DNA of 64,000 nucleotides, from contig NW_025778912.1 in the NCBI RefSeq assembly GCF_021130785.1, positions 1 to 64,000 of the forward strand. Direction: 5' to 3'. The position numbers and the translations under genes are program-made. Numbering within the stretch: position 1 is the first letter of the stretch; every line of letters starts with the position of its first letter. Below, piece after piece: positions 2,451-57,157 of this stretch. The notes beneath the pieces were generated by a model. It saw nothing but the letters and a program-made list of their open reading frames with translations. It made no database searches and was not told the DNA's origin. The stretch is from Homalodisca vitripennis (Eukaryota > Arthropoda > Insecta > Hemiptera > Cicadellidae).

Positions 2451-2641
2451 CATTTCTGCTCCCGAGACCGTGGACCCGACAAGACCTTCCAGCGAGACGA
2501 GTCGACCACGGATCAAGATGGAAGAAGAGGGATCTGCCTCGGCGGTCCCAGTTGGCGGAGCCGGTTTACCGGAGCCGCTGGCGACACTACTGGGGTCCCG
2601 CGCGGCTTGCCAAGCGGGCCCCCAGCGCTGTCTGCCCAAAA

Positions 2642-2657
2642 GGCCTTTTACAAGGCC
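2642..2657 (+). promoter_or_regulatory. Histone-like stem-loop 1 in element A leader (copy 1)
   Basis: GGCCTTTTACAAGGCC: stem GGCCTT/AAGGCC, loop UUAC, with CCAAAA before and AAACA after. The stem equals that of the local histone genes; the third loop base (A) departs from the usual U. Confidence 0.72.
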
Positions 2658-3088
2658 AAACAACCGCTGGACGTCCCAGCAACACCATTCCACCCGGGAC
2701 GGGAGATCAGGGCCCGGGTGAAGTCCGGTTTTTATTTACCGGAGCCCTGTAACGCGATGTGCCAGGTGAGCCCGCCCCGGTCAGCCGACCGGGCCGCGGG
2801 ATCCCAGCACCGCACTGCTGCTCAGGCCAGCACACTTATTCCACCCGGGACTTGTCAGGGCCCGGGTGAAGTCCGGTTTTTACCGGAGTCCTGTCACGCG
2901 ATGTGCCAGGTGAGCCCCGCCCCAGTCAGCCGACCGGGCCGCGGGATCCCAGCACCGCACTGCTGCTCAGGCCAGCATTTCCACCCGAGACTTTTCAGGG
3001 CCCGGGTGAAGTCCGGACTACCCCGGAAAGCTGCCAGGGTGCAGCGACTAAGTGCCAGGGGAACCTGCGCCGGTCTGAGGCCCAAAAA

Positions 3089-54301: not shown

Positions 54302-56951
54302 ACTCAGAATTGTAAGCTGGAACGCCGACGGGGCAGCGGGAAAGCGGCAGGAACTCAGCCAACTACTGACTGACATGGACGTGGACGTGGCACTTCTCCA
54401 GGAGACACACTTCAGGCCGACGGACAAATTCAGCATCCCCAACTACCAGGTGCTCCGCACCGACAGGCAGCTTCAGGGCATCAGGGCAAGCGGCGGCACA
54501 GCGATTCTTGTCCACCGGCGAGTGGCTCACCGGCTCCTAGTCACACCTCCTGCTCTGGGGGCAGAGCTCACCCGGATCGCTGTCCACCACAACGGGTCGG
54601 AGCTAGAGCTGACTTCTCTCTACAACCCACCTGGGAGGAAGCTTCAACCTCGCTGCCTGGACGCCCTGCTTCGTCCTGACTCCCCCGCGCTCGTCGCCGG
54701 GGACTTCAATGCCAAGCACCCGGACTGGGGATGCCGGAGGCCCAACAACTCCGGAAATGACCTCAAACGTCTCCTGGAGAACCGTCACCACGTCCAACTA
54801 CTGGCCCCTACGGAACCGACTCACTACCACCACAACGGACATTTTCAACCCGACATTCTTGACTTCGGCCTAGCTGGATCACTGAGTGGACACATCGAGG
54901 TATTTGCCGTATCCGACCTCTCGTCAGACCACGTGCCAGTTGTCTTCGACCTGCCTGACGATGGAGCTCCAGCCTACCCTCCAGCTCGCTCCACCAAGGT
55001 CAACTGGCACAGGTACGCAAACTACCTCGCCGACAGACCTCGGCCTCCACCAACTCCAGCCGAGTCATCAGACCAGCTAGACCGTCAAGTACTGGAACTT
55101 ACAAACACCCTCCAGGAAGCAGTGACCGTCTCCTCATCACCTCTCTCACGGGTAAACTTCACTCCACCTCTACCTGAGGACTTGAGAGAGGAGATACGTC
55201 TGCGCCGTAGACTGCGAAGAGAGTATCAGCAGTCCCGTTGTCCCCACGCCAAGCACACCTTCAACCGCCAAGCCAGGAGATGCACACGCCTCCTGGCAGA
55301 ACACCGAGCGGCCGCGTGGGATGACTACGTGGAACACCAGGCTGACGGTGGTGTCGGCGGCATATGGAAGATCTCCAAGGCTCTCCGAGGGGAAAAGAAG
55401 ACCATTCGACCTCTCCACGGACAACGTGGAATCGTCTACTCCCCCGAGGACAGAGCAGAAGCCTTTGCCGACACCATGGAAGATCAATTCTCTCCACACG
55501 CAGACATCTACGACGAGGACACCTGCGAGGCGGTCGAAAACTTCCTCGAGGACTACTCTCCTGACTCCACAGACCCACTGCCACTCGTGACCACACTCGA
55601 GGTGAATGAACACATCCGACGACTACGCCCGAAGAAAGCTCCCGGCCCTGACTCCCTGGGAACACCAGCCCTGCAGAACCTGCCGGCTTGGGTGATCGTC
55701 ACGATCACCTGTATTTTCAACACCTGCCTGCGCCTGGCACACTTCCCCACCATCTGGAAGGACGCCAAGGTGATCATGATCCCCAAGCCTGGCAAGGACC
55801 CCCTCTTTCCGGAGAACCACAGGCCAATCTCCCTGTTGCCCGTGCTCTCCAAGATCCTGGAGAGGATCATCCTGTCAAGGTTCCCAGAGGAGTTTTTCAA
55901 CTCTATCAGGACCGAACAGTTCGGCTTCCGGAGTGGACACTCCACCACCCAACAACTTCGCCGAGTCATCAACCACCTCTCAGGGGCGATCGAGAGGAAG
56001 CACCACTCCACTTCGGTCCTGATAGACGTCAGCAAGGCCTTTGACAGAGTGTGGCACGAGGGCCTACTTTTCAAACTCACCGAGTCTCCGCTGCCAGGAA
56101 AGATGTTCATGCTACTCCGGAGCTACCTCCACCGTCGGACTTTCTCCGTCCATGTTGCACGATCAGCCTCCACGTCACGGCCAGTCTCCTCCGGTGTGCC
56201 ACAGGGGTCGGTACTTGGGCCGATACTGTACCTGTGGTACACAAACGACTTCCCAGTCGCCCCGAGGGTACAGCTGTCTCTCTACGCAGATGACGCGTTG
56301 CTGACGGCCACCTCTGCCAACCTGAGGATGGCCAGAATATACCTCCAACGACAGCTGGATCTTCTGGAGCCCTGGCTGACCAAGTGGAGGATAAAAGTCA
56401 ACGTGGACAAGTGCGAAGCTATAAACTTCACCCGACGACCGAGGCAAGCCGATGGACGACATCTGACTCTAGGCGGAGACAACATTCCATGGAAGACGAA
56501 AGTCAAGTACCTGGGGGTACTCCTGGACAGTCGACTGACACTGACACCCCACGTCACGAGAACCTGCAGCCTAGCAAGGAAGGGCTTTGCAAGCATCAGC
56601 CCACTGCTCTACTCCACGAAGCTACCGACCAGGACAAAGGTCCTCCTCTACACGGCCCTCACGCGACCAGTGCTCACGTACGCGGCCCCTGCCTGGTACC
56701 ACCTCACCTCCAAGACCGCCAGGAGACAATTGCTCGCGGTCCAGAGCGTGTGTCTCCGGAAGGCAACTGGGTCGCCCTGGTTCGTGAGGAACACCGTGAT
56801 CAGAGAGTCCGCCAACATCCCGACCATCAGGTGCTTCGTGGACCGCTTGACATCCACCTTCGAAGAGGCTGCAGAATCCTCGCCGTGGGAACACCTACGG
56901 ACACTACGTGCCCAGGAGGTCCCCCAACTTCGTCTTCCTACGGACGACTGA
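54294..56951 (+). CDS. Element A ORF2, endonuclease-reverse transcriptase
   Basis: 885 aa, intact. Endonuclease: N10 (WNADG), E37 (LQETHF), D137/N139 (AGDFNAKH), D212/H213 (SSDHVPV). Linker about 220-445. RT: KKAPGPD (447-453), IPKPGKDP, HRPISLLPVLSK, EQFGFRSGHSTTQQ, LIDVSKAFDRVW (D578), GVPQGSVLGP (634-643), YADD 664-667. C-terminal region ends QLRLPTDD. No RNase H or C-terminal CCHC. Start is the ATG in ATGGGTAG that overlaps the ORF1 stop, which suggests coupled termination-reinitiation. Clearly homologous to B1/B2 ORF2 but much more distant than those are from each other. Confidence 0.95.
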   Translation: MGRLRIVSWNADGAAGKRQELSQLLTDMDVDVALLQETHFRPTDKFSIPNYQVLRTDRQLQGIRASGGTAILVHRRVAHRLLVTPPALGAELTRIAVHHNGSELELTSLYNPPGRKLQPRCLDALLRPDSPALVAGDFNAKHPDWGCRRPNNSGNDLKRLLENRHHVQLLAPTEPTHYHHNGHFQPDILDFGLAGSLSGHIEVFAVSDLSSDHVPVVFDLPDDGAPAYPPARSTKVNWHRYANYLADRPRPPPTPAESSDQLDRQVLELTNTLQEAVTVSSSPLSRVNFTPPLPEDLREEIRLRRRLRREYQQSRCPHAKHTFNRQARRCTRLLAEHRAAAWDDYVEHQADGGVGGIWKISKALRGEKKTIRPLHGQRGIVYSPEDRAEAFADTMEDQFSPHADIYDEDTCEAVENFLEDYSPDSTDPLPLVTTLEVNEHIRRLRPKKAPGPDSLGTPALQNLPAWVIVTITCIFNTCLRLAHFPTIWKDAKVIMIPKPGKDPLFPENHRPISLLPVLSKILERIILSRFPEEFFNSIRTEQFGFRSGHSTTQQLRRVINHLSGAIERKHHSTSVLIDVSKAFDRVWHEGLLFKLTESPLPGKMFMLLRSYLHRRTFSVHVARSASTSRPVSSGVPQGSVLGPILYLWYTNDFPVAPRVQLSLYADDALLTATSANLRMARIYLQRQLDLLEPWLTKWRIKVNVDKCEAINFTRRPRQADGRHLTLGGDNIPWKTKVKYLGVLLDSRLTLTPHVTRTCSLARKGFASISPLLYSTKLPTRTKVLLYTALTRPVLTYAAPAWYHLTSKTARRQLLAVQSVCLRKATGSPWFVRNTVIRESANIPTIRCFVDRLTSTFEEAAESSPWEHLRTLRAQEVPQLRLPTDD

Positions 56952-57157
56952 CGGACTACTACCAACACTACACTACTAGACCACTGACAGGCAGCGAGAG
57001 CTGCTAGGGCTATGACCCGAATAGTCATTGGGTAAAAGCCAGACAACGGCAGAAGCCCAACTAGACGTGGAGGACACCCCTCCACAATCGTACAGACTTG
57101 GACTTGGACTTGGACCAAGGCTTCCATCTGTATCCCCGCAACCGAGTACAGCGCAAC

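Follow-up and report, generated by a model that had tools for sequence, protein, structure and literature searches.

The stretch of DNA analysed here (the window) comprises 64,000 nucleotides (nt) of Homalodisca vitripennis (assembly GCF_021130785.1, contig NW_025778912.1, positions 1 to 64,000, forward strand) and is part of a contig of 78,243 bases (C2798) in an assembly of 2,304,811,887 bases and 14,901 contigs. It holds a tandem array of histone genes with a unit of ~3.86 kb (3.75–3.87 kb between bare neighbours across the genome), each unit consisting of a divergent pair of H2B (minus strand) and H2A (plus strand) genes plus an AT-rich spacer. Pfam confirms the identity of H2A and H2B, and no further gene was recognised in the empty unit. 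The units are ~97–99% alike; an inverted unit lies at the left end of the window, and the array stops at ~60042. Seven of the eight H2A/H2B promoter blocks in the window carry a Jockey-type long interspersed nuclear element (LINE) with two open reading frames (ORFs). These elements, i0 to i6, are listed below. For i0 the 5' junction alone falls inside the window, and the exact ends of the elements can be placed only to within a few bases because of poly(A) and the target duplication.

1..217, minus strand: i0, lineage-A-like 5' end, truncated where the window begins, inverted unit, H2A site; CATTCTGCTCCGAGACG starts the element and is preceded by GGCCACGGCTTTCT
2459..7297, plus strand: i1, lineage A, H2A 5' site; tail (ACTTGG)n; frames broken
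11178..16949, plus strand: i2, lineage B1, H2A 5' site; poly(A) tail; both frames open
20688..25590, minus strand: i3, lineage A, H2B 5' site; frames broken
29442..35096, minus strand: i4, lineage B2, H2B 5' site; both frames open; duplication ATAGGCCAAAAT
42990..48555, plus strand: i5, lineage B2, H2A 5' site; frames broken; duplication CCAAGGCTTCC
52436..57114, plus strand: i6, lineage A (family A1), H2A 5' site; both frames open

Two insertion positions are used in the window, 43 nt before the H2A ATG and 38 nt before the H2B ATG, and all seven elements are in sense with the histone gene that they cut off from its promoter. This bears out the preliminary description, which had placed three lineages at only two positions in seven of the eight blocks. 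The 3' junction at H2A is CAGG^CCAAGGCTTC, with the element end followed by CCAAGGCTTC or (CC)ACGGCTTC, and the one at H2B is AGAA^TTTTGGCC, with the element end followed by (AA)TTTTGGCC. The same description attributed a short target duplication to each element and took all of them for separate insertions. The two duplications that it quoted, those of i4 and i5, are exact, whereas i1, i2, i3 and i6 have flank repeats that do not match perfectly (CCACGGCTTCT versus CCAAGGCTTCC in i6). Lineage A occurs at H2A (i1, i6) and at H2B (i3), B2 at both (i5 and i4, respectively) and B1 at H2A (i2). Because i1 and i6 share a site and are 98.8% alike, at least five of the insertions, counted as lineage by site, can be regarded as certainly independent, rather than all seven. 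The chance of five random insertions hitting two 3-nt sites in the right orientation is ~3e-16, a figure that is indicative, the sites having been defined from the same data.

The coding content of the elements with open frames is as follows.

52535..54301, plus strand: ORF1 of i6, gag-like, three CCHC motifs
54294..56951, plus strand: ORF2 of i6, APE (apurinic/apyrimidinic endonuclease)-type endonuclease and reverse transcriptase (RT), without RNase H
12437..13951, plus strand: ORF1 of i2, gag-like, three CCHC motifs
13944..16637, plus strand: ORF2 of i2, start placed as in the aligned i4 sequence (13896 in the mechanical ORF)
32431..33951, minus strand: ORF1 of i4, gag-like, three CCHC motifs
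29745..32438, minus strand: ORF2 of i4, endonuclease and reverse transcriptase

In i2, i4 and i6 the two frames overlap by 8 nt. The ORF2 products of these three elements match PF03372/PF14529 and PF00078 in Pfam, and catalytic-type blocks are preserved across 14 aligned ORF2 sequences; PRE_C2HC was found in ORF1 of the B elements with a score below the curated cut-off. Judged from their sequences, i0–i6 are non-LTR (long terminal repeat) retrotransposons, that is, LINEs of the APE type, as indicated by the endonuclease and reverse transcriptase of ORF2, the short duplications and the poly(A) or repeat tails. Traits of the Jockey clade are present, namely two ORFs, a gag protein with three CCHC knuckles and an ORF2 without RNase H. 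The lineage A elements i1, i3 and i6 are 93–99% alike, and i0 is 77–86% alike to them over ~160–230 nt; the two B2 elements (i4, i5) are 96% alike, B1 and B2 73–74%, and ORF2 of i6 and i4 44%. Near the element start, CTGCTC followed a few bases on by GACGTG is common to A and B and occurs in all seven window copies (with extra bases in i1). A core promoter composed of an initiator and a hexamer resembling a downstream promoter element was seen by eye at the start of the B elements and i6; it is missing from i0 and other A starts, and that reading was therefore dropped.

The distribution of related copies over the genome was surveyed with the B1 ORF2 as query against the H. vitripennis assembly. 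There were 58 matches, eight of which are second pieces of the same copy, leaving 50 copies whose flanks were all inspected. These are the best 50 of 63,580 first-look candidates. Twenty-two of them lie at the H2A/H2B 5' sites; 28 lie in histone genes or in the promoter of the histone spacer, and the other 22 elsewhere.

H2A site, 15 copies: L016 (= i2), L017, L018, L022, L024, L033, L038, L039, L040, L044, L045, L047, L048, L052, i6
H2B site, 7 copies: L021, L023 (= i4), L046, L053, L060, L061, L062
TATA promoter in the histone spacer, 2 copies: L049, L057, of two families (A2, B2), with insertion points identical or one base apart, contig C499
H1, 3 copies: L025, L026 (= L055), L027, antisense
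H4, 1 copy: L042, antisense, in the coding part
Elsewhere, 22 copies: L019, L020, L028–L032, L034, L035, L036, L037, L041, L043, L050, L051, L056, L058, L059, L063–L066

The 3' junction was read in 21 of the 22 copies at the H2A and H2B sites, and the 5' junction only in L047. The 3' junctions are nearly constant across families at both genes, with a spread of ~0–3 nt; those of L061 and L062 are a few bases off and identical to each other, so that these two may represent one event. Some copies are 5'-truncated, and in three (L021, L022, L044) a second element occupies the site regenerated by the first. The 22 copies elsewhere showed no histone gene and no 80 nt of the compared histone-cluster DNA in the stretch read, which was often just 0.5–1.4 kb of 3' flank. 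Among them, L029 lacks the 3' end, no junction could be located for L056, L063 and L064 have one flank in common, and L050 and L051 share a flank that lies inside another element of the group. Several of the 22 are in or beside other transposons, judging by the appearance of the ORFs. GC-rich flanks of the non-histone copies were considered as a sign of gene starts; some flanks are indeed GC-rich, but several look like other transposons, and a general preference for starts of transcription is accordingly not claimed. A 3' match in H1 that resembled the H2B site was likewise set aside, the likeness being by eye and out of register.

The share of the genome that is occupied by the arrays was estimated from a search for H2A, in which all 116 candidates were scored. 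It gave 101 matches, 58 of which (two partial) were taken as array copies, on 12 contigs. At 3.86 kb per unit, the H2A/H2B arrays amount to ~224 kb, or 0.0097% of the assembly. The random expectation for 50 insertions is 0.005 compared to the 22 seen, placing copies at the H2A/H2B sites thousands of times above the array share of the genome. The corresponding binomial probability is 5e-75; it treats the copies as independent, and the p value is consequently too small. Among 44 intervals between same-strand neighbours, 25 have the bare unit size, with the spacer also free of insertions, and 19 are longer (the longer ones were read in part). With insertions in seven of its eight blocks, the window is fuller than an average array stretch. 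Eleven combinations of family and site were found, involving five families at H2A (A1, A2, A3, B1, B2), four at H2B (A1, A3, B1, B2) and two at the spacer promoter (A2, B2), which excludes a single duplicated insertion.

The families differ in how closely they keep to histone genes. A1 consists of i6, L044 (with identical ORF2), i1 and i3, and A3 of L045, L046, L052 and L053 (99.4–100% alike), together with L048, assigned by its tail, and L047, assigned by reading-frame length. All ten copies of A1 and A3 that were read lie at H2A or H2B, counting i1 and i3, which are window copies outside the 50. A2 comprises L036–L039, L041, L042 and L050 (97.4–99.8% alike), with L040, L049 and L051 assigned by tail or flank. 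B1 and B2 have both histone and non-histone copies, and L043, 91% alike to A3, lies outside the histone loci.

As the preliminary description had anticipated, the lineages group together: A, B and 17 relatives form one clade with a support of 99, which takes up 20 of the 36 rows of a tree built by a quick method and 21 of the 95 rows of a FastTree tree. Aphid proteins fall in the group next to the A/B clade in these RT trees, which were built without a verified Jockey reference. A search of genome contigs yielded 15 distant relatives at 23–32% identity, and no relative was found in viral contigs. A third family, C, carries a (CCTG)n tail, and its RT end is 37–48% alike to A/B and their relatives. 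The element ends 38 nt before the ATG of H4, in the same sense, on contig C81, where H3 and H1 belong to the same cluster. This region (C81:113800-124600, L042/L068) is a separate H1/H3/H4 cluster with several element insertions, family C among them. In a gene model of the moth Anticarsia gemmatalis (P0173, NCBI), a complete histone H1 is fused with an ORF1 whose likeness is 32% to A and 37–40% to B; this fusion may point to a related element beside a moth histone gene.

The enrichment of LINEs of one clade at the 5' ends of H2A and H2B, far above chance, leads us to conclude that these elements are likely to target histone genes on insertion, and we put the probability of this conclusion at about 85%. 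Several observations weigh against it. The census covers the closest copies, and lineage A enters it at 44–45% identity. In the stretch read, 22 of the best 50 copies are outside histone loci, and six more fall in H1, H4 or the spacer, off the H2A/H2B sites; the H1 and H4 matches are antisense, in or near the coding part. Targets within A2 are mixed even among nearly identical copies, L037 occupying an unrelated chromosomal site (on C1) and L038, 0.2% apart, the H2A site. Arrays amplify insertions, so the copies are not all independent. Finally, the H2A and H2B sites are identical in 11 of 28 bases, which is not unusual within the unit, and share the purine/pyrimidine pattern in 21 of 28 (top 1% of positions), so that any sequence code is weak. 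The earlier proposal of a histone-targeting group, which nearly all copies at the two sites would have supported, has to be amended in this light, together with the remark that no element lies in spacer or coding sequence. The group stands, with 28 of the 50 copies in histone loci compared to an array share of ~0.01%; strict specificity appears too strong a reading, given that 22 copies lie at the two sites and as many, in the stretch read, away from any histone locus, and the absence from spacer and coding sequence holds within the window, whereas genome-wide H1, H4 and the spacer promoter carry insertions. Targeting that is strong, not exclusive and dependent on the family fits the data better, and "histone-preferring, with A1 and A3 close to specific" is the more fitting description.

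Fixed 3' junctions, truncation of some copies at the 5' end, short duplications and tails of poly(A) or repeats are the marks that target-primed reverse transcription leaves in LINEs, and the histone elements bear them. The element endonuclease would nick the template strand of the histone gene near the putative start of transcription, and the element RNA would be reverse-transcribed from the nick. The insertion would regenerate the site downstream, open to repeat insertion, and an array of many copies may tolerate the loss of single units. Most likely, a cue at the level of the locus brings the element to the histone genes and the endonuclease then prefers the leader of H2A and H2B; the way to the locus, by nuclease specificity, a locus tether or both, is likewise inferred. 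We place this mixed model first, before two alternatives that each rely on a single cue.

According to the first of these, a sequence-specific endonuclease would suffice by itself, recognising a leader motif (TTTYAGR, 3–6 nt, GGCYT), and arrays would be struck merely because they hold dozens of motif copies. The constant 3' junctions and the purine/pyrimidine pattern common to both sites are in keeping with this notion, and all 15 occurrences of the bipartite motif in the window fall at H2A/H2B sites, from which it was itself derived. However, the base identity between the two sites is unremarkable for the unit, which speaks against a sequence motif as the whole answer, and the spacer promoter, H1, H4 and the H4 leader carry insertions without the motif. 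We regard this explanation as possible but on balance unlikely. The second alternative, a tether to active histone promoters or to the histone locus body, with insertion just past the start of transcription and little choice of sequence, would explain the similar distances to the ATG in H2A (43), H2B (38) and H4 (38), the entry of two families into the spacer TATA promoter, and the further insertions in H1 and H4. The few-base precision is not expected from a tether alone, and neither are coding insertions in H1 and H4 that are antisense and away from the promoter; as a full account, it appears rather improbable.

Random insertion followed by survival in a tolerant array, with unequal exchange copying a few elements, is very unlikely. 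Homogenisation is visible in the ~97–99% likeness of the units and in the common junction of L061 and L062, and i1 and i6 may go back to one event, but eleven family-by-site combinations and the single orientation at the H2A/H2B sites are hard to obtain in this manner, and the spacer, expected to be the most tolerant part, is bare in 25 of 44 intervals and free of insertions in the window. This explanation would lead one to expect insertions in spacer to be as numerous as those at the leaders, and the stretches read show the contrary. An assembly artefact, with chimeric or duplicated contigs of an array that is hard to assemble, can be dismissed almost entirely: small indels towards the left of the window hint at noisy sequence and several short histone contigs may represent haplotigs, yet the target duplications of i4 and i5 are clean and the same pattern recurs on 12 contigs, including the chromosome-size C6 (168,834,166 bases).

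The host features of the window that serve as reference for the insertion sites are given below.

38965..39132, no strand: empty H2B/H2A promoter block, with the H2A site at ~39089/39090 and the H2B site at ~38963/38964
39133..39507, plus strand: H2A gene of the empty block, one of seven plus-strand H2A genes
42447..42854, minus strand: H2B gene, ORF as listed, with the ATG 12 codons inside

Positions 1-11100 differ from the other units by many one-base indels, which gives the impression of poorer polishing on the left of the contig. A CCAAT/TATA promoter is present in the histone spacer at 41430-41530 and at the same place in other units; no gene was recognised behind it.

Two hairpins in lineage A carry the stem of the host histone mRNA, GGCCTT/AAGGCC.

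52624..52639, plus strand: SL1, lineage A, GGCCTTTTACAAGGCC; also at 2642-2657, and at 3-18 on the minus strand in i0
52928..52943, plus strand: SL2, lineage A, GGCCTTTCTAAAGGCC, with AAA and AC flanks; weak match to Rfam Histone3; also at 3089-3104 in i1

The host stem-loop is GGCCTTTTTAAAGGCC / GGCCTTTCTAAAGGCC (for example at 39557-39572 and 42380-42395), and SL2 (AAAGGCCTTTCTAAAGGCCAC) differs from that of host H2B in one base of 21. With the Rfam Histone3 model SL2 scores 25.8 bits (i1, i6) and the 14 host stem-loops 28.8–30.4, all below the curated cut-off of 34. In a scan of 22 lineage A starts, exact SL2 and exact SL1 were each present in 17. No such hairpin was found in B1 or B2, i3 is without an exact stem, and the word TCGTTTTC, which comes next after the stem in both host genes, is missing from all seven window elements. 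Among 16 A copies the conservation of SL2 ranks 233 of 637 windows and that of SL1 531 of 637, no better than their surroundings, a result that argues against their being under selection within the species. When ORF1 was resampled synonymously (20,000 replicates, performed post hoc), the outcome was two exact stems 19 times, a full SL2-like hairpin 10 times and at least one stem in ~16%. One relative, P0171, known from its protein alone, has an ORF1 37% alike that keeps AQKGLSEGH compared with AQKGLSKGH, the residues encoded by the stem-loop. It could be imagined that the RNA of A elements poses as histone mRNA, that stem-loop-binding protein carries the ribonucleoprotein to the histone locus, that the endonuclease then nicks near the start of H2A, H2B or H4, and that the clade lives on insect histone genes; the P0173 fusion and the P0171 residues would be traces of the same habit elsewhere. 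We consider this scenario improbable, and the stem-loop is treated as a lead.

To our knowledge, the targets of site-specific LINEs are genes for untranslated RNA, simple repeats or telomeres. The Drosophila telomeric elements HeT-A, TART and TAHRE, which belong to the Jockey clade, resemble the histone elements in their gag and APE/RT proteins and in having a preferred genomic home, but they are added to chromosome ends, whereas the histone elements are inserted internally and precisely. A group of site-specific LINEs is named in PMC4640811, those of the R1 and Tx1 clades (R1, TRAS, SART and kin). These elements use an APE-type endonuclease for precise insertion in a multicopy target, as here, and several families share a target. 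Their targets are rRNA and other RNA genes, microsatellites and telomere repeats in contrast to the protein-coding histone genes, and the solved endonucleases of TRAS1 and R1 match the element endonuclease weakly. The same paper describes Utopia elements in U2 small nuclear RNA genes as using multicopy genes for a safe harbour, with families of strict and of weak specificity (PMC4640811), and Dada DNA transposons target small RNA genes (excerpt of PMC8869645). Both are similar to the histone elements in making a safe harbour of multicopy genes; unlike them, Utopia encodes a restriction-like endonuclease and Dada belongs to the DNA transposons, and both reside on small RNA genes. Ty3 integrates near the transcription start of genes transcribed by RNA polymerase (Pol) III (excerpt of PMC8632968), a comparable closeness to the start of a gene class; it is an LTR element with an integrase and a Pol III tether, whereas here a LINE is found at Pol II genes with no tether known. 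In fish, LTR elements of the ERV1 and Gypsy kinds are cited at histone sites, without site specificity, in the excerpted text of PMC10651099, and that of the H. vitripennis genome paper gives LINEs as ~6.7% of the genome and mentions neither histone nor Jockey (PMC8496328). No LINE aimed at histone genes was found in searches of one open-access library. The elements would be site-preferring LINEs with a new class of target.

The occurrence of strict (A1, A3) and loose (A2, B1, B2) families in one genome would make it testable how LINEs find Pol II genes. If the targeting is true, replication-dependent histone genes, which code for protein, would offer LINEs a new safe harbour at their 5' ends. 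This harbour would come at a price: five of eight H2A genes and two of eight H2B genes in the window are separated from their promoter by ~5 kb.

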